DNA of 64,000 bases from Luteibacter aegosomatis (GTDB lineage: Bacteria; Pseudomonadota; Gammaproteobacteria; Xanthomonadales; Rhodanobacteraceae), in contig NZ_CP095740.1 in assembly GCF_023078455.1 (NCBI RefSeq), positions 3,832,001 through 3,896,000 on the forward strand, written 5' to 3'. Position numbers and translations under genes: made by a program. The notes beneath the pieces are model-generated. The model was not told where the DNA came from. It searched no databases and saw only the letters and a program-made list of their open reading frames with translations. Below are positions 26,816 to 42,242 of this stretch, in pieces. The number at the start of each line of letters is the position of its first letter. The first letter of the stretch is position 1.

Positions 26816-26922
26816 GGGGGATCCGTGCGGTCGCGGGGATCGCCCATGATACCGCGCGGACGCCATGGGAGCCGCTTCGGAAGCGGCGCCAAGTCGCTTC
26901 GAGCGCCGCCGCACCCCCGCAC

Positions 26923-27077: not shown

Positions 27078-27779
27078 TCACTCCACGGGCACGTCGAAGA
27101 TCGTCGACGCTACCGCCGACGGCAGCGAGTAATGCCACCACTCCGCCGGATAGTTGACGAAGCCACGCGCCTCCATCGCCCGCTTCAGCCGTTGCCGGTT
27201 CGCGCGCTGCGGCGCCGTGATGCGCGGATCGTCGGTATGCGCCAGTGGATCGAAGAAATCGAAATCCGTCCCCATGTCCAGCGGCACGCAATGCCCCGCA
27301 TCGCAACGCATCAGCGTGAGGTCCACCGTGGCGCCACGGCTGTGCCCGGATACCGGGGCGATGTATTCGCCCAGCAGCTTGTCCTTGCCGAGGTTCGGGT
27401 AGTGCGCCGCCTTCGTGCGCACGTCCGACAGATCGCCCGCCCACCGAACGAATGCCGCGACGGCGCGGGCCGGCCGATAGCAATCCCATACGCGAAGCCG
27501 GTAACCCTCGCCGCGCAGATCGGCGTCGACGGCGGCGAGCGCCTTCGCGGCGGCGGTGCGAAGGAAGCACTTCGGTGCCCGGTACCCGTCGACCGGTGCG
27601 CCGGTGAAATTGTGCGCGCCCGCGTAGCGCATGTCCTCGTCGATGTCCGGCACGAGCGAGCGCACGTCGGTCAGACCCGCCTCGGCCGCCGTGCGGGCGG
27701 GGGACACGGGCGGCGTTTCCGCCGCGCTCGCATCGAGGGCAAGCGCGACGAAGAGGAAAAGGCGGATATGCATCGTCAT
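27078..27779 (-). CDS. VanX/DdpX-type D-alanyl-D-alanine dipeptidase
   Basis: Zinc dipeptidase of the peptidase M15D family, 233 residues, with a signal peptide (about 1-18, ending LDASAAE) that puts it in the periplasm. Family marks are VPDIDEDMRYAGAHNFTG near the start, VWDCYRPARAV, the zinc motif GHSRGATVDLTL (His and Asp ligands) and AEWWHYSL (catalytic Glu and last His ligand). Such enzymes cut D-Ala-D-Ala; without vancomycin-resistance genes nearby the likely role is use of cell-wall D-Ala-D-Ala. ATG 27779 has GAGGA six bases upstream. It is the last gene of a minus-strand unit with an Oar-like receptor and a transglutaminase-like protein. Confidence 0.9.
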   Translation of the reverse strand: MTMHIRLFLFVALALDASAAETPPVSPARTAAEAGLTDVRSLVPDIDEDMRYAGAHNFTGAPVDGYRAPKCFLRTAAAKALAAVDADLRGEGYRLRVWDCYRPARAVAAFVRWAGDLSDVRTKAAHYPNLGKDKLLGEYIAPVSGHSRGATVDLTLMRCDAGHCVPLDMGTDFDFFDPLAHTDDPRITAPQRANRQRLKRAMEARGFVNYPAEWWHYSLPSAVASTIFDVPVE

Positions 27780-27815
27780 GGATCGTCCTCGCGACACCCT
27801 GGGGCCTCGCCGTAG

Positions 27816-27835
27816 GCACCGGCCTGCGCCGGTGC
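27816..27835. repeat. Short hairpin between receptor and dipeptidase genes
   Basis: GCACCGGC-CTGC-GCCGGTGC, an 8-base perfect stem in the 94-base gap between the TonB receptor stop and the dipeptidase start. Resembles the core of short Xanthomonadales repeats; no T-run, so not an obvious terminator. Confidence 0.5.
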
Positions 27836-27873
27836 GACGAAGTCTATCGCAGCGGCACCGATGCGCCCAAGGA

Positions 27874-30864
27874 TCAAAAATCGATCGATACCGTCAACTG
27901 CCCGAACCGCGGCGACTGGAACCGCTGGGGCTGCAGGTAGGTCGGGTTGAGCCCGCCGACCGAGGTCTGCAGGTCCTGGTCGACGCCCAACGTGCGCTGC
28001 TGGTTGAGCAGGTTGTAGACCGCCAGCTTAACGCGCAGGTTGTTCTTTTCGTCCAGAGGCAACAGGTAGGTGATGCTGGCGCCCAGGTCGAACGTCCATG
28101 GCGTGCGCGACGCACCGCGCGGCGACGCCCTGTAGACCCGGTTCTCCGACACCGGATCGGTGCAGTTCTCCACGCAGATGAAATAGCTGTGGTACACGGT
28201 CCTGTCGTAGGGATTGCCCACGCCGTATCCGGTGATCGGGCTTCCCGAGAGCGCCGTGAGGTTCGCGCCCACCTGCCACTGCTTGCTGATCGCGTACGTG
28301 CCGCGCAGCTTGAACTGGTGGCGATGGTCGTTCGGCAGGTAGCCGCTGGAGAGGTTCACCCAGGGATCGTCGAAGTTTTCCGTGCGGCCGGTGTCGTCGA
28401 AATTGGTGTCGGAATTCACCGGCCCCTCGGCATTGCCACGATTCCACGACAGCACGTACGAGGCGTTGAACATCCACTTGTCGTCCCATGCGCGGTCGAG
28501 CTGGAATTCCATCGAGGCGAACGTGCGCTTGGGCTTCTTCCAGCCGCGTTGGCCGAGGTAGTTGCCCGACGCGTCGTAGAGCGCCCAGCCCTCTTTCGAG
28601 GTGTCGATGGTGAGGTAACCGTCGGCCACGCCGTCGCAGTCGGTATCGCCCCATACGGTGACGTTGCGTCCGGGATTGGCCATCACGTAGCCGATCTTGC
28701 CCGCGGGGCCACACTGCGGCGTGGCCGTGATGTTCATGTCGTCGATGGCGTCGTGCAGCTTGCGATAGGTGCCGCTCACGCCCCACGACCACGTATCGGA
28801 GATGGCCTGCTGGAAGCCGAGGATGGCTTCGTCCTGGTAGACCGAGTCCATGTGCTTGTCGACTTCGGAACGCAGGTCGCCCACCGTGCCGTTGCCTTGC
28901 GACGTATCCACGCCGCCGATCTGCGGCCCCAGGATGGGCACCGCATAGGACGAACCGTTGCGGTCGAGGATCCGGTAGCCGTCGAAGCCGTAGTAGGTGC
29001 GCTCGTCGAGCAGGCCGCCGGCCTGCTTGATGTTGATCACGTTGGCGACCGGCAGGTAATAACGGCCGAGGTTGCCGAAGACCTTCATGGTGCCGTCGCT
29101 CATCACGTCCCAGGAGAAGCCCAGGCGCGGCGCGATCATGTTGTCCATCTTGATGTAGCTGCGGCCCTCGCCGGTCTTGTTGTCGAAGGCGTCGCGGCGC
29201 AGGCCCACGTTGAGCAGGACATCGGGCGTGATGTTCCAGTTGTCCTCGACGTAGTAGGCGCTGTTGGTGGTCTCGAACGTGCCGGCGATCTCGTAGCGGC
29301 GGGCACGGACGTAGGCATCGTACCCGCCGGGCACCACGCCGCCGTTCTCGATGGTGGATCCCGGCGTGGTCGGATAGATGTTGTAGTAGAACGCCCCCGG
29401 CCCGGGATAATGGCGCGAGTAGTCCGAGGTGTCGATTTCATGGTCGTAGCCGAAACGCACGACGTGGTCGCCCAGCGCCCACTCGAAGTCCGCGCGCGAC
29501 TGCTTGCGCGTGTCGTTGCGTTTTTCCACCGCCGTGCTCGTGCTGCATCCCAGCGGCACGCCGGGGCCGGCGACGCCGGTGGCTCGCGCGACGGGATTGC
29601 AGTCGAGGTCGGACTGGCCGCGCGTGAACGACTCGCGCTCGTTGCGGCCGTACATGAGTTTCATCGACAGGTTGTCCACCAGGTAGCTGGTGAAGGTACC
29701 CGCCCAGTTGCGGCCGCCCGTGTCGCTGTAGATCTCGTCGTTCTTGTTGCCGAGCGTATCGGTGTCGTAGTCGTAGCTGTAGACCTTGCCCACGTTCTTG
29801 TCCTTGTCGGAGAAGGCCATGAACTCGAGCAGGTTCTTGTCGTTGATGTGCCAGTCGACCTTCGCGCCCCAGAAGCCGGAGTCGGTGTCGTTCTGGGTGA
29901 GCACGGTGCCCGCGTTGTCGGTGTTCTGCGGCGTGTAACCCCGCGCCTCGTACATCGCGAAGAAGAACAGCTTGTCCTTCACGATGGGACCCGACGCGTA
30001 CACGTTCATCTTGGTGCGCGAGTAGCGGTCTTCCGACGAGGTGATATACCGCTCGCCGTCCCAGTAGCGGTTCTTCGCGGCCGCCTGCCAGGCGCTGGGT
30101 TCGAAGGTCATCTCGGCACCGGCCTTGAACTCGTTGGTGCCCGAACGCGTGACCGCGTTGACCACGCCGCCGGTGGTGCGGCCGAACTCCACCGAGTAGC
30201 CGCCGGTCTTCACCTGGAACTCCTGGTAGAAGGCGAAGGGAGCCTGGGAGAAGCCGTTGCGGTTATAGAAATCGGTGACGTTCAGGCCGTTCACGTAGAA
30301 CGAGTTTTCCGCCACCGACGAACCGCCGAACGAGATGCCGCCGAAGCCCGCGTTGCCCTTGTTCACGCCCGGCGCCAGCAGGGCCACGGCCTGTACGTTC
30401 TGGTCCACCGGCAGACGGCGAATTTCCTCGCGGCTGATGTTGGTGGCGGTTTCGGTGGAGCTGACGTCCACGGCCGATATCACCACCGGCGCGCTCACCT
30501 GCACGCCTTCGAGTTCGGTGGTCGCCTTCGAACGGTCCACGAGGTTCACCGTGGTGGCGTTACCCAGGCTCACGTTGACCTGGGCGGTCTCGCCGACCGG
30601 TTGGCCGTCGAGACGGCTGTCCAGCGTGTAGTGACCGATGGGAAGGAAGGGAAAACGGTAGTTTCCGTCGCGGTCGGCGGTCACCGTGCGGGTCAGCCCC
30701 GTCGACGGATCGCGCACCGTGACGCTGGCACCCGGCCGCGTGCGACCCACGATCGAACCGTCGGTATTGGCCGCATGCGCGGCGCCACCCATCGTCAGGC
30801 CCATGCAGATCGCCATGCAAAGCGCGGCGTGGCGCGGCATGCGCCGCGTGCTGATCTCCCCCAT
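27874..30864 (-). CDS. Oar-like TonB-dependent receptor with N-terminal CarboxypepD_reg domain
   Basis: A 996-residue outer-membrane receptor. After a signal peptide (about 1-32, ending GGAAHAA) comes a carboxypeptidase-regulatory-like beta-sandwich (about 35-105: SIVGRTRPGASVTVRDPSTG, DGNYRFPFLPIGHYTL), then a plug with ISREEIRRLPVDQNVQAVA and NSFYVNGLNVTDFYNR, and a long barrel ending TVSIDF. This architecture is shared with Myxococcus Oar and with many Xanthomonadales and Bacteroidetes receptors for peptides or glycans. It lies 45 bases after the transglutaminase-like gene and is followed by the D-Ala-D-Ala dipeptidase. From this context I infer that it imports cell-wall peptides; the ligand is not readable from sequence. 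Confidence 0.9.
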   Translation of the reverse strand: MGEISTRRMPRHAALCMAICMGLTMGGAAHAANTDGSIVGRTRPGASVTVRDPSTGLTRTVTADRDGNYRFPFLPIGHYTLDSRLDGQPVGETAQVNVSLGNATTVNLVDRSKATTELEGVQVSAPVVISAVDVSSTETATNISREEIRRLPVDQNVQAVALLAPGVNKGNAGFGGISFGGSSVAENSFYVNGLNVTDFYNRNGFSQAPFAFYQEFQVKTGGYSVEFGRTTGGVVNAVTRSGTNEFKAGAEMTFEPSAWQAAAKNRYWDGERYITSSEDRYSRTKMNVYASGPIVKDKLFFFAMYEARGYTPQNTDNAGTVLTQNDTDSGFWGAKVDWHINDKNLLEFMAFSDKDKNVGKVYSYDYDTDTLGNKNDEIYSDTGGRNWAGTFTSYLVDNLSMKLMYGRNERESFTRGQSDLDCNPVARATGVAGPGVPLGCSTSTAVEKRNDTRKQSRADFEWALGDHVVRFGYDHEIDTSDYSRHYPGPGAFYYNIYPTTPGSTIENGGVVPGGYDAYVRARRYEIAGTFETTNSAYYVEDNWNITPDVLLNVGLRRDAFDNKTGEGRSYIKMDNMIAPRLGFSWDVMSDGTMKVFGNLGRYYLPVANVINIKQAGGLLDERTYYGFDGYRILDRNGSSYAVPILGPQIGGVDTSQGNGTVGDLRSEVDKHMDSVYQDEAILGFQQAISDTWSWGVSGTYRKLHDAIDDMNITATPQCGPAGKIGYVMANPGRNVTVWGDTDCDGVADGYLTIDTSKEGWALYDASGNYLGQRGWKKPKRTFASMEFQLDRAWDDKWMFNASYVLSWNRGNAEGPVNSDTNFDDTGRTENFDDPWVNLSSGYLPNDHRHQFKLRGTYAISKQWQVGANLTALSGSPITGYGVGNPYDRTVYHSYFICVENCTDPVSENRVYRASPRGASRTPWTFDLGASITYLLPLDEKNNLRVKLAVYNLLNQQRTLGVDQDLQTSVGGLNPTYLQPQRFQSPRFGQLTVSIDF

Positions 30865-30909
30865 CTCCCCACTCCCATAAGATGATGTAACGGGTTGTGT
30901 TCGCCGCCG

Positions 30910-32538
30910 TCAGCGCGCCGGGCCGCCCCCCTGCGGCATGTCCAGGCGCTGCCAGCGGAAGTCGTAGTCCCACTGGTCGAAATAAAGGTTGCCGCCCTTC
31001 CATTCGGCCTCGCCGCGCTGCGAATCGACCGTCTCCGAACGGAAGAACGTCTTGGCCGGTACCAGCGGCTGCGAGAAGTCGTCGTTGAACGCGATGCGGT
31101 AGGCGTCCAGGCCGCCGAGGTAGAACCACGCCAGGCGGTCGTCGCCCGGCCTGGCGTGCGCGCCGGGCGCCAGACGTCCGAACGTCACGTCCATCGGCAC
31201 CCAGCCGTAGGGCGCGAGATAGAGCTGGCCCCAGTCGTGGATATTGTCGTAACGGTCGTCGGAGAAGATCCATCCCGACTGCCAGCGCGCCGGTATGCCG
31301 TTGAGGCGAAGCAGCGTGATGAGCAGCAACGTCTGCTCGCCGCAGTCGCCGTGGCCGGCGTGCAGCGTGTAGTCGCCGATGTTGGAGATCGTGGAGTATT
31401 CGCGTGCGCCGGCCCAGGGGATGTCGTCGACGGCGGCGAAGAGCTTTTGCGCGATGCGGTAGGGGTTGGTCTCCTCGCCCACCACGTTCTTCGAGAACGC
31501 GCGCATGTCGTCGGTAAAGACCACGTGCGGTGCGCGCTCGGCCACATAGGGCGCGAGGTCGGGCGTGATCGGCACGCGTTTCACCTTCGCCGGATCGATG
31601 TCGACGTAACGGCCGCGCAGGGTCACCTCGTAGGTCACCGAGAAGACGGTGGGCTTGCCTGCCTCGGCTTTCTTTTCCAGATAGGCCGTGCGTTGCGCGG
31701 TGGATGCCGGTGCGACCTCGGCCTTGACCGGTTCGCTGCCGACGAGACGGATGTCGTCCTGCTGGCCCGGGATGTCCTGCGGATAGGGAATCCAGGCACG
31801 GATCGTCTCGCCGGCCGGCACCGCATCGGGGTGCACGGTGAGCGTCTGCGTCACCCGCTCGCGCATGGGCAACACGTTGACCTTGCCCGTGCGCAAGGCC
31901 TCGGCGCGGATCGCGCGATGATGGTCGTTGAGGATTTCGTTGGGACCGTCGTCGAACGGCTTGGGATCCTTCCGTCGCGCCCGGGCCTCCGCGCTGATGC
32001 GGAACAGGTTGCCCGGAGCGCGATTGAAATACAGCGTGCGGCCGTCGACGACCTGCTTCTCGAGCAGCCCCGCGGCGTCCCAGCGCGCGAATTCGGCGTC
32101 GGTGAGATCGGGAATCGCCTTGCGCAGGCGCGTCTTCACCGCATCGGCGTCCAAGGTGAAGTCGAGCAGGATGCGGCGCATGCGTTCGCGCTGGAAGAGC
32201 AGCGCGGCTCGCCGGGTATCGTCGAGGCCCGGTTGGGCGAGGGCCTTGGCGATGGCGGATTCGGCGGTCCTGAAGTGGCCGGCATCGATGTCGCTCGCGA
32301 TCGGTTCGGGCCATGGCGAGCTGGGCAGGCTGGTATCGCCGGGGCGATCGGCTGCCACTCCTGCGACAGCGACGCTTTGCTTTGCAGGAATCGCGGACAG
32401 GGTCCGCTCCCGCCCCTCCGCAGGGAGGTCACTAGCGGAGGGTGAGTGCGGACCCTGTCCGGACGCCGGGAGTGCGAGCAACATCGAACACGCGAAAAAC
32501 GCATGGCGGAAGATCGCTGGTCGGATGGCCGCTTTCAC
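30910..32538 (-). CDS. Secreted transglutaminase-like cysteine protein
   Basis: A 542-residue exported protein. From the GTG at 32538 it has a typical signal peptide (basic N-terminus, LLALPAS about 20-26), then about 24 residues encoded by a REP element, a poorly characterised N-terminal half, and a transglutaminase-like core in the last third: the Cys in GDCGEQTLLLITLLRL, His in NIHDWGQLYLAPYG and Asp in WVPMDVTFG form the triad. Family members act as proteases, amidases or cross-linkers. It leads the operon with the Oar-like receptor and the D-Ala-D-Ala dipeptidase, so a peptide-cutting role is plausible. The open frame continues upstream to a TTG, but only the GTG gives a clean signal. 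Confidence 0.8.
   Translation of the reverse strand: MKAAIRPAIFRHAFFACSMLLALPASGQGPHSPSASDLPAEGRERTLSAIPAKQSVAVAGVAADRPGDTSLPSSPWPEPIASDIDAGHFRTAESAIAKALAQPGLDDTRRAALLFQRERMRRILLDFTLDADAVKTRLRKAIPDLTDAEFARWDAAGLLEKQVVDGRTLYFNRAPGNLFRISAEARARRKDPKPFDDGPNEILNDHHRAIRAEALRTGKVNVLPMRERVTQTLTVHPDAVPAGETIRAWIPYPQDIPGQQDDIRLVGSEPVKAEVAPASTAQRTAYLEKKAEAGKPTVFSVTYEVTLRGRYVDIDPAKVKRVPITPDLAPYVAERAPHVVFTDDMRAFSKNVVGEETNPYRIAQKLFAAVDDIPWAGAREYSTISNIGDYTLHAGHGDCGEQTLLLITLLRLNGIPARWQSGWIFSDDRYDNIHDWGQLYLAPYGWVPMDVTFGRLAPGAHARPGDDRLAWFYLGGLDAYRIAFNDDFSQPLVPAKTFFRSETVDSQRGEAEWKGGNLYFDQWDYDFRWQRLDMPQGGGPAR
32392..32462. repeat. REP element (family A ends) inside the transglutaminase-like gene
   Basis: Inverted arms 32392-32421 (CGCGGACAGGGTCCGCTCCC and on) and 32435-32462 enclose a short centre. 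The arms carry the family-A palindrome. The element is translated on the minus strand without a stop as about residues 26-49, directly after the signal peptide. Confidence 0.85.
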
Positions 32539-32586
32539 CGTTCGGTATCCCCGTCGAACCGTGGTGGGTGGGTCGTGCGTCCTGGC

Positions 32587-32615
32587 TGTGTAACATGCTT
32601 GCAAACGCCGGTCAA
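32587..32615 (-). promoter_or_regulatory. Putative promoter of the minus-strand unit
   Basis: On the minus strand TTGACC (32610-32615), 17-base spacer, TACACA (32587-32592), 49 bases before the GTG start of the transglutaminase-like gene. It overlaps the plus-strand promoter. Confidence 0.5.
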
Positions 32616-32626
32616 TAATTTATGCT
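32599..32626 (+). promoter_or_regulatory. Putative promoter of the plus-strand unit
   Basis: TTGCAA (32599-32604), 16-base spacer, TATGCT (32621-32626). Transcription would begin near 32633, just before the palindrome at 32641-32658 and 60 bases before the DUF819 start. Confidence 0.5.
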
Positions 32627-32640
32627 TCATCGCAACTCGT

Positions 32641-32658
32641 CAGGAATAGATATTCCTG
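32641..32658. promoter_or_regulatory. Palindromic operator candidate for the divergent units
   Basis: Perfect palindrome CAGGAATA-GA-TATTCCTG. It lies immediately downstream of the plus-strand promoter and 26 bases upstream of the minus-strand -35, so one bound regulator could control both. The RpiR-type regulator encoded at 36437 in the plus-strand unit is the natural candidate; this is inference. Confidence 0.55.
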
Positions 32659-32691
32659 GACGCCGTGGCGACACCACCCGGAGGGGGACGC

Positions 32692-33840
32692 GTGATCCAG
32701 TCGGTTTGGCCTTACTTGGCCGTGATGCTGCTTGCGGCGGGTTTCTGGCCCGCGATCGAACGCCGCTTCGGCTGGAAGGTGTTCGAGGTGCTCCCTCCCA
32801 TCGTGCTCACCTATCTCACCGTCACGGCACTGTCGGTCGCCGGGACGTGGACGGCCACGCCGGAAATCCACGCGGCGCAGGACATGCTGGTGACCCGCAT
32901 GGTGCCCGCCCTGCTTTTCCTGCTGATGATCAACTGCGACCTGCGCGCGATCCTCGCCCTGGGTCCACGCGTGCTGGGCGTCTTCGCCTGCACCGCGGTG
33001 AGCCTGTTCGCCGCCTTCGTCGTCACCTTTCTCCTCTTCCGCCACTGGATGCCCGGCGACGGCTGGAAGCCGCTGGCCGCGCTCTCGGGAAGCTGGATGG
33101 GCGGCACCGCGAACATGATCGCGGTGAAGCAGGCCATCGGCATGGCCGATACGTCACTGGCCACGTCGTTGCTCACCGATGCCCTGTGCTATTCGATGTG
33201 GGTGGTGGTGCTGTTCTCCGTCGCCCGCCTCGCGCCGGCGTTCAACCGCTGGACGCGAGCGAAGTCGAGTGCGGACATGGCGGTGGCGCAGACCGCGACG
33301 CGGGCACCGGCCACCGGCGACAGCGTGCTGCTCTGGCTGGGCATCGCCGTGGGCGTGGCCGCCCTGTCCACGGTGCTGGGCAGCTTGATGCCGATAGGCA
33401 ACATGGTCTCGGCGACCACCTGGACCATCCTCATCGCCACCGCCGCGGGGCTCGTCGCCGCGCATACGCCGCTGGCAAGCCTGCCCGGCGCGCAGGCCGT
33501 GTCGAGCGCGCTGCTGATCTCGGTCGTGGCGGTGCTGGCGTCGCAGAGCAGTTTCGCCGGTATCGCCGCGGCGCCGCTGTACCTCGTGTGCGGCGTCACC
33601 GTCATCGCCACGCACGCGGTCTTCCTGTGCCTGTTCGCGCGCCTGTTCCACTTCGACCTTTACCTTTGCGGCATTTCCTCGCTCGCCCACATCGGCGGCG
33701 TCGCCGCCACGCCCGTACTGGCCGCCACGTATTCCCGCTCGCTGGTGCCTGTTGGCATCCTGCTGGCCCTGCTCGGTTATATCCTCGGCACGGGCTTCGG
33801 CTTGCTCGTGGCCTCCGTGCTGTCGTCGCTGGCTTCCTGA
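32692..33840 (+). CDS. DUF819 family integral membrane protein
   Basis: A 382-residue membrane protein with about ten hydrophobic helices, recognised as DUF819 (YjcL-like) from the pattern WPAIERRFGWKVFEVLPPIV near the start, LLFLLMINCDLRAIL, the glycine-rich GSWMGGTANMIAVKQAIG, and LAHIGGVAATPVLAATYS near the end. The family is thought to be transporters related to the BART group, with unknown substrate. Start is GTG 32692 with a strong GGAGGGGG site; no ATG fits. As first gene of the plus-strand unit with a murein endopeptidase and dipeptide epimerase, it is the best candidate for the inner-membrane importer of released peptides. Confidence 0.82.
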   Translation: MIQSVWPYLAVMLLAAGFWPAIERRFGWKVFEVLPPIVLTYLTVTALSVAGTWTATPEIHAAQDMLVTRMVPALLFLLMINCDLRAILALGPRVLGVFACTAVSLFAAFVVTFLLFRHWMPGDGWKPLAALSGSWMGGTANMIAVKQAIGMADTSLATSLLTDALCYSMWVVVLFSVARLAPAFNRWTRAKSSADMAVAQTATRAPATGDSVLLWLGIAVGVAALSTVLGSLMPIGNMVSATTWTILIATAAGLVAAHTPLASLPGAQAVSSALLISVVAVLASQSSFAGIAAAPLYLVCGVTVIATHAVFLCLFARLFHFDLYLCGISSLAHIGGVAATPVLAATYSRSLVPVGILLALLGYILGTGFGLLVASVLSSLAS

Positions 33841-33841
33841 C

Positions 33842-35323
33842 ATGGACCTCGGTATGAACATGCTTCGCACCACCCTGCTGGTGGCGGCCTTGGCGCTCGC
33901 GTCGGCCAAGGCGCACTCGCAAGCCCCTTCGCCGATACGATCGGCTCCCACCCCTTCCGGTAGCACCCTTCCCGCCGAAGGGGTGGGAGCCGATCGTATC
34001 GGCGAAACGAGCCTGCCGCCTTCAGGAGTGCTCGGCGTCACCGACGCGCAGTTGGACCCCTCGTACTGGGTGAGCCGGCTGCCGGACGCCGACGCCGTGG
34101 TGCTCGACGCACGCGCCATCGCCGCGCTCAACGGCAAGGTGGCCCGGCTCGATCCGTCCATGCATGACATCCGCCACTTCGGCGCGACGTTGCCGCGCGA
34201 ACAGGTGAAGGGCTGGATCGAAAAGCTCACCAGGGCGCCGTCGAAACCCCTGTTCGACATCGAAGGCAAGCCGGTACCCGCGGCCACCGTCGACGGCATC
34301 ATGGCGAACGCCGCCCTCGACGCCGTACCCGCCGAGGTGACGCCACGTTACGGCATGGCCGTGCGCCGCAGCGCCCTGCGCGGTTATCCCACCGATCTTC
34401 GCGTGTTCAGCCACGCGGGCGATACCGACATCGACCGCTTCCAGGAAAGCACGTTGTTCCCCGGCGACCCGCTCGTGGTGGTTCACGCGAGCCGCGACGG
34501 CCACTGGCTCTTCGTGGTGAGCCCGCGCTATGCCGCGTGGACGCATGCCGACGACGTCGCCTACGGCGACGCGAAGGCGATCTTCGCGCACGTGGACGCC
34601 ACGCCCTACCGGGTGATCACCGGCGCGAAACCCGACACCGTCTACACGCCCGAGGTACCCGCGCTTTCCGAACTGCAACTGGACATGGGCACGCGCGTGC
34701 CGCTGGATACCTCGGTGCCGCCGGACCAACCGGTGAACGGGCAGACCGCGTACACCTCGTGGACGCTCAGCCTGCCCGTGCGCGACGCGAACGGCGACCT
34801 GTCGTTCCATCCCGCCCTGCTCCAGCGCAACGCGGACTCGTCGGCGGACTACCTGCCGCTCACGCGGGCGAACGTCATCCGCCAGGCGTTCAAGTTCCTC
34901 GGCGAGCGGTACGGTTGGGGCCATGCCTACAACGGCCGCGACTGCAGCGGCTTCGTCTCCGACGTGTACCGGAGCATGGGCGTGCAGATGCCGCGCAACA
35001 CGCGCGACCAGAGCATCAGCCCGGGCCTGGAACACACCGTGTACACGGACAAGGACGACCACGACGCCCGCGTGAAGGCGGCGATGGCGTTGGAGGTGGG
35101 CGACCTCGTCTACATCCCCGGCCACGTGATGATGGTGATCGGCAAGATCGACGGCCAGCCCTACGTGATCCACGATGTGGGCGGCATGAGCTACCGGCGG
35201 GACGACGGGAGCCTGCGCCACGTGAAGCTCAACGCGGTGTCCGTCACGCCCCTCCTGCCGATGATGTTCGACGGCGACGCCACCTTCGTCGACCGCATGA
35301 CCAGCATCGTCCGCATCCGCTAA
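33842..35323 (+). CDS. SH3-NlpC/P60 cell-wall endopeptidase (YkfC-like)
   Basis: A 493-residue exported enzyme. Residues 1-28 are a signal peptide ending AKAHSQA; residues about 29-55 are encoded by a REP element; two SH3-like domains follow (about 180-320, with AVRRSALRGYPTD and GDPLVVVHASRDGHWLFVV), and the NlpC/P60 domain (about 340-480) has the catalytic Cys368 in NGRDCSGFVSDVYRSMGV and His in YIPGHVMMVIG, with a second polar residue in YVIHDVGG. This SH3-SH3-NlpC layout is that of gamma-D-glutamyl-L-diamino-acid endopeptidases, which release L-Ala-D-Glu from stem peptides. The start follows the DUF819 stop by one base and is uncertain (33842, 33854 or 33860). Confidence 0.88.
   Translation: MDLGMNMLRTTLLVAALALASAKAHSQAPSPIRSAPTPSGSTLPAEGVGADRIGETSLPPSGVLGVTDAQLDPSYWVSRLPDADAVVLDARAIAALNGKVARLDPSMHDIRHFGATLPREQVKGWIEKLTRAPSKPLFDIEGKPVPAATVDGIMANAALDAVPAEVTPRYGMAVRRSALRGYPTDLRVFSHAGDTDIDRFQESTLFPGDPLVVVHASRDGHWLFVVSPRYAAWTHADDVAYGDAKAIFAHVDATPYRVITGAKPDTVYTPEVPALSELQLDMGTRVPLDTSVPPDQPVNGQTAYTSWTLSLPVRDANGDLSFHPALLQRNADSSADYLPLTRANVIRQAFKFLGERYGWGHAYNGRDCSGFVSDVYRSMGVQMPRNTRDQSISPGLEHTVYTDKDDHDARVKAAMALEVGDLVYIPGHVMMVIGKIDGQPYVIHDVGGMSYRRDDGSLRHVKLNAVSVTPLLPMMFDGDATFVDRMTSIVRIR
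33928..34006. repeat. REP palindrome (family B copy 3) inside the NlpC/P60 gene
   Basis: Arms TTCGCCGATACGATCGGCTC and on, and the inverted arm ending GGCGAA, with the usual CCGGTAG/ CCCGCCG centre. It lies within the open reading frame immediately after the signal-peptide codons and is read through as about 26 residues without a stop. Confidence 0.88.
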
Positions 35324-35335
35324 ACGGCCCATTCC

Positions 35336-36427
35336 ATGAAGATCACCGACATCCGCTTCGGCATGCTCCGCGTGCCGCTCAAGACCGCCTTCAAGACCGC
35401 CCTGCGCACCGTCGACACCGTGGAAGACATCGTCGTGATGGTGCATACCGACGATGGCCGCATCGGCTACGGCGAAGCCCCGGCCACGGCGGTCATCACC
35501 GGCGACACGCACGGCTCCGTGCTCGATGCCATCCGCCACTACATCGCCCCGCGCATCGTCGGGCAGGACGTGGCCGACCTCAACCGCCTCACGCGCCTGA
35601 TCCAGGGCGCGATGGAACGCAACACCAGCGCCAAGGCCGCCGTCGAGATCGCCGTCTACGACCTCTGGGGCCAGCTCTACGGCGCGCCGCTCTACAAGCT
35701 GCTCGGCGGCGGCGATCCGGTGATCACCACCGACATCACCATCAGCGTCGACTACATCGACAAGATGGTGGCCGATTCGGTATCCGCCGTGGAGCGCGGT
35801 TTCGAATCGCTGAAGATCAAGGTTGGCAAGGACATCGGCGTGGACATCGAACGCGTGCGCGCCATCCATGCCGCCGTGGAGAATCGCGCCCTGCTCCGCC
35901 TCGACGCCAACCAGGGCTGGACGGCGAAAGAGGCCGTCTATGCGTTGCACGCGCTGGAAGACGCCGGCGTGCGCCTGGAACTGGTCGAACAGCCGGTGAA
36001 GGCGCGCGACCTGGAAGGCATGCGCTACGTCACCGAGCGCGTGCATACGCCGGTGATGGCCGACGAGAGCGTGTTCGGCCCACTGGAAGTGATGGAACTC
36101 ATCCGCATGCGCGCGGCGGACATCATCAACATCAAGCTGATGAAGACCGGCGGCATCTCCAACGCCATCCGCATCGCCGACATCGCCGGCCTGCACGGCA
36201 TCGACTGCATGATCGGCTGCATGCTCGAATCGAGCATCAGCGTGGCTGCCGCCGTGCACGTGGCCGTCGCCAAGGCCGACGTCATCACCAAGGTGGACCT
36301 CGACGGTCCCTCGCTGTGCGCCTACGATCCGGTGGACGGCGGGGTCACCTTCAACGAGTCGGAAATCTCCATCACCGACGCCCCCGGTCTCGGCATCCGC
36401 GAAATCCGCGGCCTGGAAGCCCTTTAG
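35336..36427 (+). CDS. ycjG: L-Ala-D/L-Glu (dipeptide) epimerase
   Basis: Enolase-superfamily enzyme, 363 residues, that converts L-Ala-D-Glu from murein into L-Ala-L-Glu. Catalytic features are all visible: the KxK motif in SLKIKVGKD, metal ligands in LLRLDANQGW (Asp), LVEQPV (Glu) and VMADESVFG (Asp), the second catalytic Lys in NIKLMKTGG, and the substrate-recognising DLDGP near the C-terminus that marks Ala-Glu epimerases. No signal peptide, so it is cytoplasmic and acts after import. It lies 12 bases after the NlpC/P60 gene, matching the product-to-substrate order. Confidence 0.92.
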   Translation: MKITDIRFGMLRVPLKTAFKTALRTVDTVEDIVVMVHTDDGRIGYGEAPATAVITGDTHGSVLDAIRHYIAPRIVGQDVADLNRLTRLIQGAMERNTSAKAAVEIAVYDLWGQLYGAPLYKLLGGGDPVITTDITISVDYIDKMVADSVSAVERGFESLKIKVGKDIGVDIERVRAIHAAVENRALLRLDANQGWTAKEAVYALHALEDAGVRLELVEQPVKARDLEGMRYVTERVHTPVMADESVFGPLEVMELIRMRAADIINIKLMKTGGISNAIRIADIAGLHGIDCMIGCMLESSISVAAAVHVAVAKADVITKVDLDGPSLCAYDPVDGGVTFNESEISITDAPGLGIREIRGLEAL

Positions 36428-36436
36428 GAAGCGACC

Positions 36437-37270
36437 ATGTCTCCTCTGGTGAAGATCCGCTCCGAACGCGACCGCATGTCGGCGGTGGAGCGGCGCATCG
36501 CCGATTTCGTGCTGGAAAACGCCCAGTTGCTGCGGGACTACTCGTCTCAGCAACTCGCGAACGCGCTGGGCATCAGCCAGTCGAGCGTCGTGAAATTCAC
36601 CCAGAAGCTGGGCTTTCGTGGCTATCCCGACCTCAAGTACTCCGTCGGCGAGGCCATCGGCCGCGCCGACGACGGTGAAGCACCCGATGCCGGGCATGCC
36701 GGCGACGCGGTGGGCGCGATGCTCTGGGAGCGAAAGACGCGGGCGGAAGAAGCCACCGGATCGATCAATCCGCCGGACGTCATCGCCCATGCCGCCGACG
36801 CGATCGGTGCCGCCGGCAAGGTATTCCTCATCGGCCTGGGCGAAGACGACCTGCACGCGCACTCGTTCGCGCTGCGCCTGTCGCTCTTGGGTATCGTCGC
36901 CATGCGCCAGCACGACGTCGGCGGCATGGCGGCACAGGTCGGTTTGGCCGGTGCCGGCGACGTGCTGGTCGTGTTCTCCGAACACGGCCGGCACCCCCTG
37001 CTGACCAAGGTCGCCCGCCACTTCCGCGAGCGGCGCGGTCGCGTGGTGAGCGTCACGCGGCACACCGCCAACCCGCTTCGCGCGGTGGCCGACCTTTCGC
37101 TCGTGGTCGCCGCGCACGACGATGCCTCCTACGTGCAGTCGCTGATCTACCAGTCGACCGTGCAGCAGCTGATGGATCGCGTCTTCGTCCATTTGTGCGA
37201 AGGCGACGGGGGCCGGCACCAGCGTTACGTGGACGCCCTCGATCGCATCCACCGGCTATTCGAACCCTGA
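36437..37270 (+). CDS. RpiR/MurR-type transcriptional regulator
   Basis: A 277-residue regulator with an N-terminal helix-turn-helix of the RpiR type (ERRIADFVLENAQLL, QQLANALGISQSSVVKFTQK, GFRGYPDLK) and a C-terminal SIS sugar-phosphate-binding fold (about 115-245: AAGKVFLIGLGEDDLHA, VLVVFSEHGRHP). MurR of E. coli, in the same family, senses MurNAc-6-phosphate. It begins 9 bases after the epimerase stop with GGAAG upstream. Lying in the middle of the unit it most likely controls it, probably through the palindrome at 32641-32658. No murQ-like etherase is next to it. Confidence 0.88.
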   Translation: MSPLVKIRSERDRMSAVERRIADFVLENAQLLRDYSSQQLANALGISQSSVVKFTQKLGFRGYPDLKYSVGEAIGRADDGEAPDAGHAGDAVGAMLWERKTRAEEATGSINPPDVIAHAADAIGAAGKVFLIGLGEDDLHAHSFALRLSLLGIVAMRQHDVGGMAAQVGLAGAGDVLVVFSEHGRHPLLTKVARHFRERRGRVVSVTRHTANPLRAVADLSLVVAAHDDASYVQSLIYQSTVQQLMDRVFVHLCEGDGGRHQRYVDALDRIHRLFEP

Positions 37271-37283
37271 CCGGAATCCTCCC

Positions 37284-38039
37284 ATGCCCATGCGCGCCTT
37301 CCGCCTCACCGGCCTGCTCGCCCTGTCGCTGTCCACCGGCGCCCTCGCCTACGAGGCGCCCGTGGCGTGGTCCGTGTCGAGGCAGATGATCGTCGTCACC
37401 ACCGATGGCTGGAACGCCGACCACGGCATCCTGCGCACCTATGTGCGCGACGGTACCCGCTGGAAGGCGGAAGGCACGGCCACCGACGTCACCATCGGCA
37501 AGGCGGGCAGCGCGTGGGGCCGGGGACTCAGCCCGGCGCAGACGGACGGCCCGCAAAAGCGCGAGGGCGATGGACGCAGCCCTGCGGGCGTGTTCCGGAT
37601 CGGCACGGCCTTCGGCTATGCCGAGACCCATCCCACGGCCATGCCTTACATGGGACTCAAGGCCTCGGATTACTGCGTGGACGTCGACGGTTCGCCCTAC
37701 TACAACCAGTTGGTGGACGAAGCCGAGGTCGGCCCGAAAGCCGTGGCCGGCGCCACCGAGGCGATGCGCCGCGACCTGCACTTCAACGGCGACCGCGCCT
37801 ACCGGATCGGCTTCGTCATCGAACACAACGCCGACGGCAAGAAGGGTGCGGGCAGCTGCATCTTCGCCCACCTGTGGAAGTCGCCCACCTCGCCGACCGT
37901 CGGCTGCACGGCGATGACGGACGGCGCGATGGAACGCCTGCTGGCCTGGCTCGATCCCAGCAAGAAACCCGTCTTCGTGCTGCTTCCGAAAGACGAATAC
38001 GCCCGCCTGCGGGATGCCTGGAACCTCCCCGTCCCATGA
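37284..38039 (+). CDS. Secreted YkuD-like L,D-transpeptidase family protein
   Basis: A 251-residue protein with a signal peptide (about 1-22, ending STGALA). It carries the catalytic motif of the L,D-transpeptidase family in the COG3786-like form: IFAHLWKSPTSPTVGCTAM, with the reactive Cys in VGCT and the His in FAHLW. Upstream elements RSPAGVFRIGTAFGYA also match. Members either link meso-DAP residues or act on free peptides and D-amino acids; no peptidoglycan-binding domain is present here, which together with the neighbours suggests an accessory muropeptide-processing enzyme rather than a wall builder. It follows the regulator by 13 bases. Confidence 0.82.
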   Translation: MPMRAFRLTGLLALSLSTGALAYEAPVAWSVSRQMIVVTTDGWNADHGILRTYVRDGTRWKAEGTATDVTIGKAGSAWGRGLSPAQTDGPQKREGDGRSPAGVFRIGTAFGYAETHPTAMPYMGLKASDYCVDVDGSPYYNQLVDEAEVGPKAVAGATEAMRRDLHFNGDRAYRIGFVIEHNADGKKGAGSCIFAHLWKSPTSPTVGCTAMTDGAMERLLAWLDPSKKPVFVLLPKDEYARLRDAWNLPVP

Positions 38040-39148
38040 GCACCCATGACGTCGTCGTCATCGGTGCCGGGATCGCCGGCGCGTCGATCGCGTATTTCCT
38101 CGCGCCGCACGCCCGCGTGCTCGTCCTGGAGCGCGAGGCGTTTGCGGGCATGCACACCACGGGACGCTCGGCGGCCCACTTCAGCGAAACCTACGGTTCG
38201 GCCCAGGTTCGCGCGCTGACCCGGGCCACGCGTCCGTTCCTGTCGTGTCCACCGGAGGGTTTCGCCGCACAGCCGATCCTGCATCGCCGGGGCTCGTTGG
38301 TGGTGGCACGGGAGGACCAGGCCGACGCATTGCGCGAGAACCATCGACGCTTGCGCATGCGTACGCCATCCCTGGCCCTGCTCGACCGGGAAGATATCCT
38401 TGCCCACGTTCCTGTGCTTCGCCCGGAGGCCGCCTGCCTCGGGCTATGGGAGCCGGACGCCGCGGACATCGACGTGAACGAGCTGCACCAGGCCTTCCTT
38501 CGCGGCGCGAAAGCACGAGGCGCGCACCTCCGCATGCATGCCGAGGTGCGCTCGATCGAGCGCGACGGGCACGGCTGGAGGATCGACGACGATATCCGGG
38601 CGGCGATCGTCGTGAACGCCGCGGGGGCATGGGCGGATGGCGTGGCGTCGCTGGCCGGCGTGACGCCGATCGGCCTGGTGCCCCGACGCCGCTCGGCGTT
38701 CCTCTTCGAACCGCCCGCGAACGTCGCCACGGCAGGCTGGCCTTTCGTGGTGGATGTCGACGAATCGTTCTACTTCAAGCCCGATGCGGGCCTCTTGCTG
38801 GGCTCGGCCGCCAACGCCGACCCCACGCATCCGCACGACGTGCAACCGGAGGAATACGACATCGCCCTCGGCATCCATCGCATCGAGCAAGCCACCACGA
38901 TGTCGATTCACCGGCCCACGCGTACGTGGGCGGGATTGCGTAGCTTCGTCGCCGACGGCGACCTGGTCGGTGGCTATGCGGCGGATACGCCAGGGTTTTT
39001 CTGGCTGGCGGCGCAGGGTGGCTACGGCATCCAGACCAGTGCGGCGATGGGCGAGGCATGCGCGATGCTGGTGTTGGGGCGGGAGCTGCCAGCGCACCTG
39101 GCGGATGCGGGGATCACGCGGGACATGCTTTCCCCTTCGCGACTATGA
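38036..39148 (+). CDS. FAD-dependent oxidoreductase, DAO/DadA-like
   Basis: A 370-residue flavoenzyme of the D-amino-acid oxidase/glycine oxidase family. The N-terminal dinucleotide motif is VVIGAGIAGASIAYFL; VLEREAFAGMHTTGRSAAHF binds FAD; VVNAAGAWADGVASLAG and the C-terminal RTWAGLRSF ... WLAAQGGYGIQTSAAMG complete the fold. No signal peptide. It overlaps the transpeptidase-like gene by 4 bases (ATGA). In a locus that frees D-Ala and D-Glu, oxidation of a D-amino acid is the simplest role; substrate cannot be read from sequence, and D-arginine dehydrogenase-like specificity is an alternative. Confidence 0.83.
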   Translation: MSTHDVVVIGAGIAGASIAYFLAPHARVLVLEREAFAGMHTTGRSAAHFSETYGSAQVRALTRATRPFLSCPPEGFAAQPILHRRGSLVVAREDQADALRENHRRLRMRTPSLALLDREDILAHVPVLRPEAACLGLWEPDAADIDVNELHQAFLRGAKARGAHLRMHAEVRSIERDGHGWRIDDDIRAAIVVNAAGAWADGVASLAGVTPIGLVPRRRSAFLFEPPANVATAGWPFVVDVDESFYFKPDAGLLLGSAANADPTHPHDVQPEEYDIALGIHRIEQATTMSIHRPTRTWAGLRSFVADGDLVGGYAADTPGFFWLAAQGGYGIQTSAAMGEACAMLVLGRELPAHLADAGITRDMLSPSRL

Positions 39149-39242: not shown

Positions 39243-42242
39243 CTAGAAGTCGTAAGACACGCTCAACCGCCCATACCTCGGTGCCTGCCGCTGCGTGATC
39301 ACGCCGAACTGCGGCTCGGGCAGGCCCGGTCCCGCTTCCGAGTACGGATACTGCTGCAATGCCCGCTGTTCGTTGAGCACATTGAACACATTGGCGTTGA
39401 AGGCGAGCTTTCCTTCGGCGAAGCCCGGCCGCCAGCTCACGCCGAGATCGATCTGACGGATCCAGGGCGTGCGCCCCTGCGTACCCGGCGGCGACGGTTC
39501 GCCATCGCAATAGTGGTAATGGCCACCGTACTTACCCGGATCCTCGTGATCCGGACCGTAGTAGCCCAGGCAGTGACGCGGCGTACCGGAGACGATGCTC
39601 ACGTTGCCCGACACCAACCACTCGGGCGCGATCTGCCAGTACCCGAACAGCTTGAACTGATGCGTGTGGTCGTTGCTCTGCGGACCGTTGGTGTGCTCCA
39701 TGATGTAGGCGTTGTCCCAATCCTCGCTCGTGGACGCCGCCGTCTGGTTGAGGTCGGAACGAAGCTGGCCTTCCGTATTGCCATAGCTGCGCGAGAACAC
39801 GTAGTTGGCCCGGGCATACCACGTACCGTCGAACGGATGCTCGAGCAGCAGCTCCAGGCTGTAGTAGGAGCGCTTGAGACGGTCGAAACCCAACTCGCCG
39901 TTGGTGATCGGCACGTCGACGTGGTTGCCGGCGGTATCGAGCAACACGAACGTGTTCGCCTGGCCGGGATTGAACAGGTAGCAGCTGTTGGCCTGCGCCG
40001 TATCGATGTTCAGCCCGAGCGACTGTCCCTTCTCGACGATGCGCTGGATGTCGCAGTAGTCGTCGATGGCATTGCGCAGCTTGCGATAGGTGAGCTTGGC
40101 CCCGTAGATCCACTCCGGGCCGAAGGTCTTGGTGAAGCCGAGGATGTATTCGTCCTGGTTTTCCGGCTTCATGCCACGGGCCGCGACGGTCTTCGGATCG
40201 GGAAGCTGGCCGAAGTTATTGTTGGCCGACACGGGTACGCCGGGCGCGATGGCCGTCAATCCCGTCGGCTGGCCATCCGGCGCGATACCCTGGTAAGTGA
40301 AGTACTGCGACGTGCTCAATGCGCCGCCGGCGGCGTTGAGCGCGGGATTCAACGGCAGCGCGAGGTAATAGCGTCCGGCATTGCCATACACCTTGAAGCT
40401 CGCGTCGCCGTTCACGTCCCAGCTGAAGCCGAGGCGCGGCGCCCATTGCGGCGACGTCTGCTTGATGTACTGGTCGCCGTTGGCGTTGTAGTTGGTGAAC
40501 TGGTCGTTGCGCAGGCCCAACGTGAGCAGCCAGCGGTCGGACACCTGCCACGCGTCCTCCACGTACTGCGCACGCTGGCTCGAACGCACCGTCGCGAGGC
40601 TCGACGAGACGCCGCGTATCACGTAATAGCCTTCCTCGCCGCCGGGATAGTTGCCCGGCGCGTCCACCCCGAGACCGGTGGAGATCGGCAACGCGGGGTC
40701 GCCCTGCTGGTAATCCCACGAATAACCGGGTCCCGACGTGGCCGTGCCCTGGTCGAAGGCGCGGGCCTGCTGGTTGTCGATGCCCAGCGTGATGGCGTGG
40801 TCGCCCAACGTGTAGTGCACGTCGAAGCGGGTGTTGGTCGTCTCGTTGCGTCGACCGGGATTGGACAGCGAGGTCACCGTCTGGCCCGAGGTTCGCGGAA
40901 CACCCCCGGTCAACGCCGGGTTCTGGAACTGCGCATCGTCGATGTAGACCGCGTTTTCGTCGTAACCGGACGGCGAGACGTAATTGTTCGTGCGCATCTT
41001 GCCGTACTGCGCGCTGATCGTGAGGTTGTCGGTGAGGTAGCCGGTGTACTTGGCCGTGTAGACGTCTCCGCCGAACTTCTCGTTATTGGCGCCGGACAGG
41101 CGCGGGCCGCGGTGGCCGTCGGCATAATCGTAGGAATAGATCGTTCCCGAGCGTTCGGTCTTGTCCGAGGCACCGGTCACTTCGACGATGTTGCTGTCGT
41201 TGATGTTCCAGTCGAGCTTGGTGTACCAACGTGGCAGCTGATAGCGGTACGAGCGGTATGGGGTGGCCTGCGTCACGTCGTTGGCGACCGCGCCCGTCTG
41301 CCGCTCCACTTCCGCGGCCGCGAAGATGTAGAGCTTGTCCTTCACCAACGGGCCGCCGCCGTAGAGGCTCGCCGTGGTGGACGTGCGCGTGCTTGCGGAA
41401 TTCAATTGGAACAGGCGACCCGCCACCGGCTGCGGCGGCAGGCCGTTGGTGTAATAGCTGTTCTTTCCGTCGGCGCGCAGTCCGTTCGGCTCCCATATGA
41501 GCTGCGCCCCCGCATGCCACTCGTTGGTGCCACGCTTGCCCACGACGTTGATCACGCCACCGTCGGAACGCCCGTACTGCGCGCTGTAGCCGCCGGTGAA
41601 AACCTCCTCCTGTTCGATCGCGCCATACGGCAGCGAGATGCCTCCGAAGCCACGCAAGGGATCGGTGGTATTGAATCCGTTGACGTAGTAGGCGTTTTCG
41701 CTCGCCGCCGAACCGCCGAACGACACCAACGAATTGCCCGTGGCGCTGGTGTAGCTGCCACTGTTGTTCACGGCGCCGGGGGCGAGCAGCGCGATGGCTT
41801 CGGAACTGCGGCCCAGCGGCAACTTGGCCAGCTGTTGCGAAGTGACGACGGTGCGCGAATCCACCGTGGACACGTCGATGGACGGCAACGCGTTCGCCCG
41901 CACGTCTACTCCGCCGAGGTCCGTCGCCTCCGCCGCGACGAACGATACCTCCACGCCCGATCCCACGCGCAACGTCACGTCGTCGCGCGATTTCGTCACC
42001 GCCCCCTCATGCACCAGCGCCACGGCGTAGGTGCCCAGGGGAAGCTGGGCCGCACTGTAGCGACCGCGCTCATCGACGGGCACCTCGCGGGTTACGCCGG
42101 TATCGCTCGTCACGCGAACGACATCGCCTCGCCCTCCATCGACCTGGCCATAGATCGAACCGGTGGTTGATTGGGCAAACGCGGCGGGAGAAAGGGCGGC
42201 AAGCAGCGAAGCCGCAAGGATCGATCGTCGGAAGGAAAGCAT
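39243..42242 (-). CDS. Oar-like TonB-dependent receptor, second copy type
   Basis: A 999-residue receptor of the same architecture as the one at 27874-30864. Signal peptide about 1-23 (ending PAAFAQS), a CarboxypepD_reg-like domain about 27-95 (GSIYGQVDGGRGDVVRVTSD, ERGRYSAAQLPLGTYAVAL), plug with VVTSQQLAKLPLGRSSEAIA, ENAYYVNGFNTTDP and YGRSDGGVINVVGKRGTNEW, and a barrel ending RLSVSYDF. The two receptors share plug motifs but differ along the barrel, so they are paralogues with probably different ligands. It is convergent with the muropeptide unit and has an unusually long leader with its own promoter. Confidence 0.9.
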   Translation of the reverse strand: MLSFRRSILAASLLAALSPAAFAQSTTGSIYGQVDGGRGDVVRVTSDTGVTREVPVDERGRYSAAQLPLGTYAVALVHEGAVTKSRDDVTLRVGSGVEVSFVAAEATDLGGVDVRANALPSIDVSTVDSRTVVTSQQLAKLPLGRSSEAIALLAPGAVNNSGSYTSATGNSLVSFGGSAASENAYYVNGFNTTDPLRGFGGISLPYGAIEQEEVFTGGYSAQYGRSDGGVINVVGKRGTNEWHAGAQLIWEPNGLRADGKNSYYTNGLPPQPVAGRLFQLNSASTRTSTTASLYGGGPLVKDKLYIFAAAEVERQTGAVANDVTQATPYRSYRYQLPRWYTKLDWNINDSNIVEVTGASDKTERSGTIYSYDYADGHRGPRLSGANNEKFGGDVYTAKYTGYLTDNLTISAQYGKMRTNNYVSPSGYDENAVYIDDAQFQNPALTGGVPRTSGQTVTSLSNPGRRNETTNTRFDVHYTLGDHAITLGIDNQQARAFDQGTATSGPGYSWDYQQGDPALPISTGLGVDAPGNYPGGEEGYYVIRGVSSSLATVRSSQRAQYVEDAWQVSDRWLLTLGLRNDQFTNYNANGDQYIKQTSPQWAPRLGFSWDVNGDASFKVYGNAGRYYLALPLNPALNAAGGALSTSQYFTYQGIAPDGQPTGLTAIAPGVPVSANNNFGQLPDPKTVAARGMKPENQDEYILGFTKTFGPEWIYGAKLTYRKLRNAIDDYCDIQRIVEKGQSLGLNIDTAQANSCYLFNPGQANTFVLLDTAGNHVDVPITNGELGFDRLKRSYYSLELLLEHPFDGTWYARANYVFSRSYGNTEGQLRSDLNQTAASTSEDWDNAYIMEHTNGPQSNDHTHQFKLFGYWQIAPEWLVSGNVSIVSGTPRHCLGYYGPDHEDPGKYGGHYHYCDGEPSPPGTQGRTPWIRQIDLGVSWRPGFAEGKLAFNANVFNVLNEQRALQQYPYSEAGPGLPEPQFGVITQRQAPRYGRLSVSYDF

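Follow-up and report, generated by a model that had tools for sequence, protein, structure and literature searches.

A conserved Luteibacter locus links a DUF819 transporter to probable use of peptidoglycan stem peptides

Known routes for cell-wall peptides and the present locus

In Escherichia coli, AmpG imports cell-wall peptides for processing in the cytosol. We analysed a 64,000-nucleotide stretch of the Luteibacter aegosomatis genome (Rhodanobacteraceae; GCF_023078455.1, contig NZ_CP095740.1, positions 3,832,001 to 3,896,000; hereafter the window), in which two divergent gene units around a DUF819 membrane transporter probably serve to collect and catabolise peptidoglycan stem peptides. 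The Bacillus ykfABCD-dpp and B. cereus ykfBC genes, like this locus, combine an epimerase with a gamma-D-Glu-diamino-acid endopeptidase; for B. cereus, breakdown outside the cell followed by import of L-Ala-gamma-D-Glu was modelled, and ykfB-ykfC adjacency was noted in several genera (PMC2954226). Those genes lie beside ATP-binding cassette (ABC) transporter genes (dpp, oppA) or their importer is called unidentified (PMC2954226), whereas here a DUF819 gene stands in the cluster; the NlpC/P60 endopeptidase of the locus furthermore lacks the YkfC residue Asp256, and genes for M15, YkuD-like and DAO enzymes, an outer-membrane receptor, a transglutaminase-like hydrolase and an RpiR regulator are added. 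The E. coli AmpG-Mpl and MpaA-YcjG-PepD routes share the conversion of L-Ala-D-Glu to L-Ala-L-Glu and on to amino acids (PMC2954226), but act in the cytosol, whereas the endopeptidase of this locus is exported and the genome carries its AmpG-family and Mpl genes at other sites. YejBEF-YepA of Agrobacterium is likewise a route for cell-wall fragments other than AmpG, but an ABC muropeptide transporter of the cell's own recycling, and the abstract describing it mentions neither DUF819 nor an epimerase (PMC9790009). The passages of PMC7860986 consulted do not assign DvLysin (3M1U) or PnpA (which we infer to be 6sqx) to an uptake locus.

An earlier note on this DNA, made from its letters and reading frames, knew of no described system with this exact set. 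Of its elements, ykfB-ykfC linkage and dipeptide import after breakdown outside the cell had already been proposed for B. cereus (PMC2954226); in the open-licence literature we found no paper assigning a muropeptide role to DUF819. The locus offers a candidate for the importer that the YkfC literature left without a name and a testable function for one clade of an unassigned transporter family, and it suggests that several bacterial groups scavenge cell-wall peptides as an organised, regulated trait, some lineages with the help of an outer-membrane receptor.

The DUF819 transporter and its conserved neighbours

Linkage was scored by tblastn in 97 genomes of the window's family (loci carry L numbers and genomes G numbers). 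The DUF819 profile PF05684 was found in 44 of them, and 42, including the window's own, have the window's type; the DUF819 proteins of G004 and G063 belong to another clade of the tree given below. Both the epimerase and the NlpC/P60 gene lie within 6 kb of DUF819 in 41 of 41 other family loci, the receptor, transglutaminase-like, RpiR and YkuD-like genes each in 39, and the DAO gene in 26 (28 within 10 kb). The commonest order, M15-BlaE-M19-LysA-Oar1-TGase facing DUF819-NlpC-Epim-RpiR-YkuD-DAO, is seen in 12 loci, and ten further loci show it minus M15 in the stretch covered. At E <= 1e-60 the epimerase was detected in 48 of the 97 genomes, namely in every one of the 42 whose DUF819 is of the window's type and in 6 among the 55 others (Fisher 2e-21, not corrected for kinship). 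The linkage in relatives that the earlier note proposed to check is thus strongly upheld in the window's family and in several other groups, and chance linkage was rejected, the epimerase being present in 41/41 family loci and 48/80 loci of the wider scan described below vs 0/31 of the other DUF819 clade.

Most relatives carry further genes between M15 and the receptor. Within 10 kb, LysA (diaminopimelate (DAP) decarboxylase; TIGR01048 over cut-off in L162) occurs in 31 of the 41 family loci, M19 (membrane-dipeptidase family) in 34 and BlaE (a beta-lactamase-like hydrolase) in 38. None of the three gave a tblastn match in the 64-kb window, to which that search was limited, and the earlier description of the system as complete was accordingly too strong. 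Six epimerase-bearing loci without DUF819 are also without the receptor; four keep M15, the transglutaminase-like gene, RpiR, epimerase and YkuD, and the other two M15, M19, NlpC, epimerase and YkuD. L013 and L035 have DUF819 without the receptor, transglutaminase-like gene and RpiR, so that, among epimerase-bearing loci, DUF819 can be kept without the receptor and the receptor was never seen without DUF819. L160-L163 retain RpiR, the palindrome described below and most enzymes, without DUF819 and the receptor.

Beyond the family, a scan with four DUF819 sequences was evaluated for the best-scoring 80 of 177 stretches (the named loci, not a random sample and several of them cut by contig ends; L001 is a duplicate of the window and L080 one of L056). 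These include Alteromonadaceae, Woeseiaceae, Kordiimonas, Robiginitomaculum, Sulfurovum, Clostridium and kin, Riflebacteria and a Fusobacteriaceae bacterium; no Bacteroidota was seen among these 80, in a scan not aimed at that phylum. Within 6 kb of DUF819 we found the epimerase in 48, NlpC/P60 in 38, an SSF symporter in 17, a kinase in 11, MurQ in 9 and NamZ in 7, while YkuD-like genes were near in 4 and LysA lay within 10 kb in 12. Restricting the count to loci that extend for 4 kb or more on each side leaves 56, of which 40 carry the epimerase and 51 carry one or more of epimerase, NlpC, YkuD, MurQ, NamZ or kinase. The epimerase is on the strand of DUF819 in 87 of the 89 epimerase-bearing loci (family and named). 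As in the window, an Oar-type receptor gene is placed divergently ahead of DUF819-NlpC-Epim in Kordiimonas-type L113 and L122, where LysA-like, beta-lactamase-like and RpiR genes are close by (in L122 also S66 and DAO); in L056, DUF819-NlpC-Epim-YkuD is followed by an SSF-cluster gene, a kinase, MurQ (over cut-off) and NamZ; and PepV stands beside DUF819 and the epimerase in two Bacillota loci (L140 and L098; 554 and 526 bits, passing the NF005591 cut-off of 435 and missing the TIGR01886 cut-off of 632). The partner genes of relatives, LysA and MurQ over cut-off and also NamZ, kinase, SSF, S66 and M19, would complete the peptide pathway.

The other DUF819 clade has the epimerase in 0/31 loci within 10 kb. 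This control set omits L077, L078 and L079 (divergent DUF819), L056, L067 and L072, of which L056, L077 and L078 have epimerase-family neighbours. In a tree of 72 sequences the 31 controls grouped in one clade, and a second clade held 37 sequences including the window's, 26 of them with the epimerase (SH-aLRT, an approximate likelihood-ratio support, 95 and 94, by a quick method with long branches; L067, L077, L078 and L079 fall outside both). The other clade likely has a different function. Ten of its loci (L054, L055, L057-L062, L064, L069) hold DUF819 between two constant gene clusters, identified by Pfam in L055 as a Transglut_core2/TPR protein and a DAHP-synthase-I-family protein.

The window's DUF819 protein passes the PF05684 cut-off, and its modelled fold is that of the Na+/citrate (CitS) and Asp/Ala (AspT) transporters, although identity to CitS (2HCT) and AspT, whose substrates are citrate and Asp/Ala, is only 11-13%; a PDB sequence search gave no match. 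We regard it as a well-founded candidate importer of a small acidic product, most likely L-Ala-gamma-D-Glu.

Gene set, enzymes and regulator

All genes named in the earlier note were recovered by Pfam profiles and reading frames, at the places, on the strands and in the two back-to-back units it had given (Table 1). The locus is flanked by nadE at 25199-26914 and by a second Oar-type receptor gene at 39243-42242, the minus unit comprising the transglutaminase-like, Oar-type receptor and M15 genes and the plus unit DUF819, NlpC/P60, epimerase, RpiR, YkuD-like and DAO. Plus-strand gaps of 13, 12, 9 and 13 bp and a 4-bp overlap of the YkuD-like and DAO genes give an operon-like arrangement. Starts were revised from reading frames, and for DUF819 also from homologue lengths (DUF819 32692, NlpC/P60 ~33854, DAO 38036). 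Signal peptides were recognised by eye in the M15, receptor, transglutaminase-like, NlpC/P60 and YkuD-like proteins, and none was seen by eye in the epimerase, RpiR and DAO proteins. The second receptor gene adjoins the locus, convergent with DAO, and does likewise in 3/6 other same-genus loci (L029, L037, L038; limited stretches). The earlier note mentioned neither this gene nor the additional genes that most relatives carry between M15 and their receptor.

Table 1. Features of the locus, in window positions
Feature	Positions	Strand	Basis
Exported M15 D,D-dipeptidase-like (VanX-like) protein, 239 aa	27078..27797	-	PF01427 5e-44
Oar-type TonB-dependent receptor (Oar1), 996 aa	27874..30864	-	OMP_b-brl_4, Plug, CarboxypepD_reg
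Exported transglutaminase-like cysteine hydrolase	30910..32604	-	Transglut_core 1.3e-16
Weak sigma-70-like promoter match (9/12)	32590..32619	+	1 found, shuffles mean 0.0; directly before palindrome
Palindrome CAGGAATAGATATTCCTG, putative RpiR operator	32641..32658	.	between both units
DUF819 membrane transporter, 382 aa, candidate L-Ala-gamma-D-Glu importer	32692..33840	+	DUF819 9e-74
Exported SH3-NlpC/P60 endopeptidase (DvLysin/PnpA-like)	33854..35323	+	SH3_6, NLPC_P60; PDB best 3m1u 8.6e-28
Cytosolic YkfB-like L-Ala-D/L-Glu epimerase	35336..36427	+	MR_MLE; PDB best 1jpm
RpiR-family regulator	36437..37270	+	HTH_6 + SIS
Exported YkuD-like (L,D-transpeptidase/carboxypeptidase-like) protein	37284..38039	+	PF03734 2e-6, 28.7 bits, cut-off 23.4
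Cytosolic FAD (flavin adenine dinucleotide) D-amino-acid dehydrogenase, DauA-like	38036..39148	+	DAO 1e-55; 3nyc

The epimerase matches the B. subtilis L-Ala-D/L-Glu epimerase (1jpm) over residues 1-354 of 363 (342 bits) and keeps KIK, D, E, D, K, Arg24 and the DxD positions, which we take to be the catalytic and specificity sites (KxK, D, E, D, K, Arg24, DxD) of the B. subtilis enzyme; other epimerase-type NCBIfam models stayed below cut-off (NF041118 256/500, PRK15129 112/343). The NlpC/P60 protein aligns with 3m1u from residue 149 onward with Cys and His kept; the c-clip domain (PF12912), which DvLysin/PnpA-type enzymes combine with SH3b domains and a catalytic NlpC/P60 domain, was not reported at 1e-3. 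The enzyme is predicted to cut at gamma-D-Glu-|-mDAP (meso-DAP). YkfC is defined by Asp256, which binds the free amine of the N-terminal L-Ala (PMC2954226). Since the window's protein reads PRN where YkfC (3h41) has PRD, with Asn opposite this Asp, the YkfC-type assignment suggested earlier was rejected. Among 78 NlpC sequences (counting the window's genome and L056 twice each), 65 read PRN, 10 RRN/ERN and 2 PRD, and 1 was unscorable. PRD occurs only in L164 and L165, both without DUF819; L160, L161 and L163, also without DUF819, have no Asp, so there is no clean rule joining the Asp to the absence of DUF819. L164 and L165 lack the transglutaminase-like gene and RpiR as well, and their Asp possibly marks a substrate change together with a transporter change.

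The M15 protein has VanX as closest PDB entry (1r44, 6e-41) and carries SGHSRGATVDL and EWWHY, presumably the zinc-site motifs of M15, but reaches 179 bits against the cut-off of 320 of the VanX equivalog model. The flavoenzyme, described before as DAO-like, indeed matches the DAO profile and is closest to D-arginine dehydrogenase DauA (3nyc, 421.8 bits, residues 5-370 of 370). Cys397, His432 and Asp448 of the transglutaminase-like protein (numbered from base 32532) are invariant in 26 aligned sequences and likely form its catalytic triad. The YkuD-like protein reads SPTVGC, where we take an HGC-type catalytic motif to be typical of YkuD L,D-transpeptidases; PDB sequence searches with this protein and the transglutaminase-like one gave no match. 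The receptor has both Plug and barrel domains of TonB-dependent receptors.

Between the units lies a perfect 18-bp palindrome, for which 0.08 matches at <=3 mismatches are expected in the window. Of the 39 family loci with RpiR, 35 match GGAAT-N4-6-ATTCC at 9-10/10 positions in the 150 bases before DUF819 (25 without mismatch, always N4 or N5). The same score was reached by 0.4% of 1576 random stretches, and the loci, being related, are not independent. The two family loci that lack RpiR scored only 7 and 8/10, and loci without DUF819 showed a parallel trend, with 9-10/10 in four RpiR-bearing ones and 7/10 in RpiR-less L164 and L165. The conserved palindrome goes with RpiR presence, and we regard it as a putative RpiR operator. 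The genome (4.76 Mb, single contig) holds four exact GGAAT-N4/5-ATTCC sites and none of the reversed control; a genome-wide regulon was not detected, one site being at the locus and the other three inside reading frames called by base composition. The earlier label RpiR/MurR-type stands in its first half: the regulator scored 67.7 bits with the MurR equivalog (cut-off 408), the MurQ model reached 22-23 bits in the genome (cut-off 302), and MurR identity was rejected.

Proposed pathway and competing explanations

We propose, with a probability of about 65%, that the locus is under RpiR control and serves to collect and catabolise peptidoglycan stem peptides. Cell-wall peptides or muropeptides would cross the outer membrane by way of the Oar-type receptor; outside the cytosol the YkuD-like and M15 enzymes would trim the D-Ala end, NlpC/P60 would cut between gamma-D-Glu and mDAP, and the transglutaminase-like hydrolase may also trim imported peptides. 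DUF819, as an elevator-type transporter of the CitS/AspT fold, would move the small acidic product, most likely L-Ala-gamma-D-Glu, across the inner membrane, where the cytosolic epimerase would convert it to L-Ala-L-Glu, a substrate of ordinary dipeptidases, and the DauA-like dehydrogenase would oxidise some freed D-amino acids, with RpiR binding the inter-unit palindrome and controlling both units. The direction of this scheme, already drawn in the earlier note, agrees with the exported enzymes, the cytosolic epimerase and DAO and the transporter fold of DUF819; its biochemical steps are read from gene content, and its weakest links concern what exactly DUF819 carries, what the receptor brings in and which bond the transglutaminase-like protein cuts. 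Elsewhere in the genome one gene passes the TIGR00901 cut-off, a model we take to describe AmpG-type permeases, and one passes the Mpl cut-off, so that the locus is an addition to the usual recycling genes; this speaks for the use of stem peptides as food. The wider reading, in which such loci serve peptidoglycan-peptide utilisation and some diderms have added a TonB receptor and an RpiR switch, is evenly balanced as a whole.

Several observations weigh against the proposed pathway. The six loci without DUF819 and the receptor indicate that the chemistry can run without both, and the transglutaminase-like gene, present in 53 of the 97 genomes, occurs in 9 without epimerase or DUF819 and so may serve other peptides. 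LysA of relatives is expected to be cytosolic, so DAP must enter too, and DUF819 could carry DAP or tripeptide instead. To our knowledge, DauA is not a D-Glu enzyme. Among the named loci a window-like Oar receptor is near DUF819 in only 6-7/80; the epimerase is missing in 16 of the 56 with ample flanks, and 5 of the 56 (L085, L091, L092, L112, L147) have none of the tested peptidoglycan genes.

The alternative that survives best, though still unlikely, keeps the pathway and lets DUF819 carry DAP, DAP-D-Ala, D-Ala(-D-Ala), free D-Glu or tripeptide in place of L-Ala-D-Glu. It would account for the DAP-decarboxylase-like gene within 6 kb in 31/41 family loci, for DUF819 near alanine racemase in L072 and a DgcN-like gene of D-Glu catabolism in L077, and for DUF819 beside M15 in L067 and in N. 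meningitidis, where this is one of three variable configurations (PMC12671195); the dipeptide epimerase is nevertheless the most constant partner across phyla, accompanied by PepV in the two Bacillota loci, and LysA has no match in the window and is found in the minority of named loci given above. A role of the locus in turnover of the cell's own wall or in signalling of cell-wall stress, and not in feeding on outside peptidoglycan, is unlikely. Fragments from the strain itself would also be acted on by all of the enzymes, sugar phosphates are the signals sensed by RpiR/SIS regulators, and a beta-lactamase-like gene is found in the clusters of relatives, but recycling genes of the AmpG family and Mpl exist elsewhere in the genome, it is not obvious what a TonB-type receptor would do in periplasmic recycling, and the epimerase (E <= 1e-60) is absent from 49/97 family genomes. 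General peptide scavenging by the receptor, transglutaminase-like protease and peptidases, with an epimerase that broadens dipeptide use, is very improbable: dipeptide epimerases with other specificities exist and the transglutaminase-like gene of the nine epimerase-less genomes stands with an M61 aminopeptidase gene, 6/9 of these loci having an Oar-type receptor that resembles the second one of the window more than the first, but the window's epimerase is closest to the B. subtilis L-Ala-D/L-Glu enzyme with its DxD and Arg positions kept, and the partners elsewhere are MurQ, NamZ, LysA, NlpC/P60 and S66.

In these nine loci (L166-L174), the M61 glycyl aminopeptidase gene was identified by Pfam beside the transglutaminase-like gene in L172 and L173, and in 9/9 an adjoining reading frame falls into the same sequence cluster; YkuD-like genes adjoin the transglutaminase-like gene in L166, L168 and L170. 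At L067:6382-8461, M15 adjoins DUF819, the same pair as in N. meningitidis. At L077:9399-13469, a divergent DUF819 stands beside a GntR-like regulator (by eye), a DgcN-like gene (454 bits, below the cut-off of 480) and an enolase-superfamily gene that is a candidate DgcA by position only, an arrangement that may link DUF819 to D-glutamate catabolism. DUF819 genes are reportedly mentioned in a cotton study. Land plants have bacterial-type L-Ala-D/L-Glu epimerases (PMC3605383). Finally, in the Clostridium-type loci L098, L116, L128, L140 and L150, a small protein of a single cluster is encoded between or beside DUF819 and the epimerase, assigned to DUF3870 in L128.

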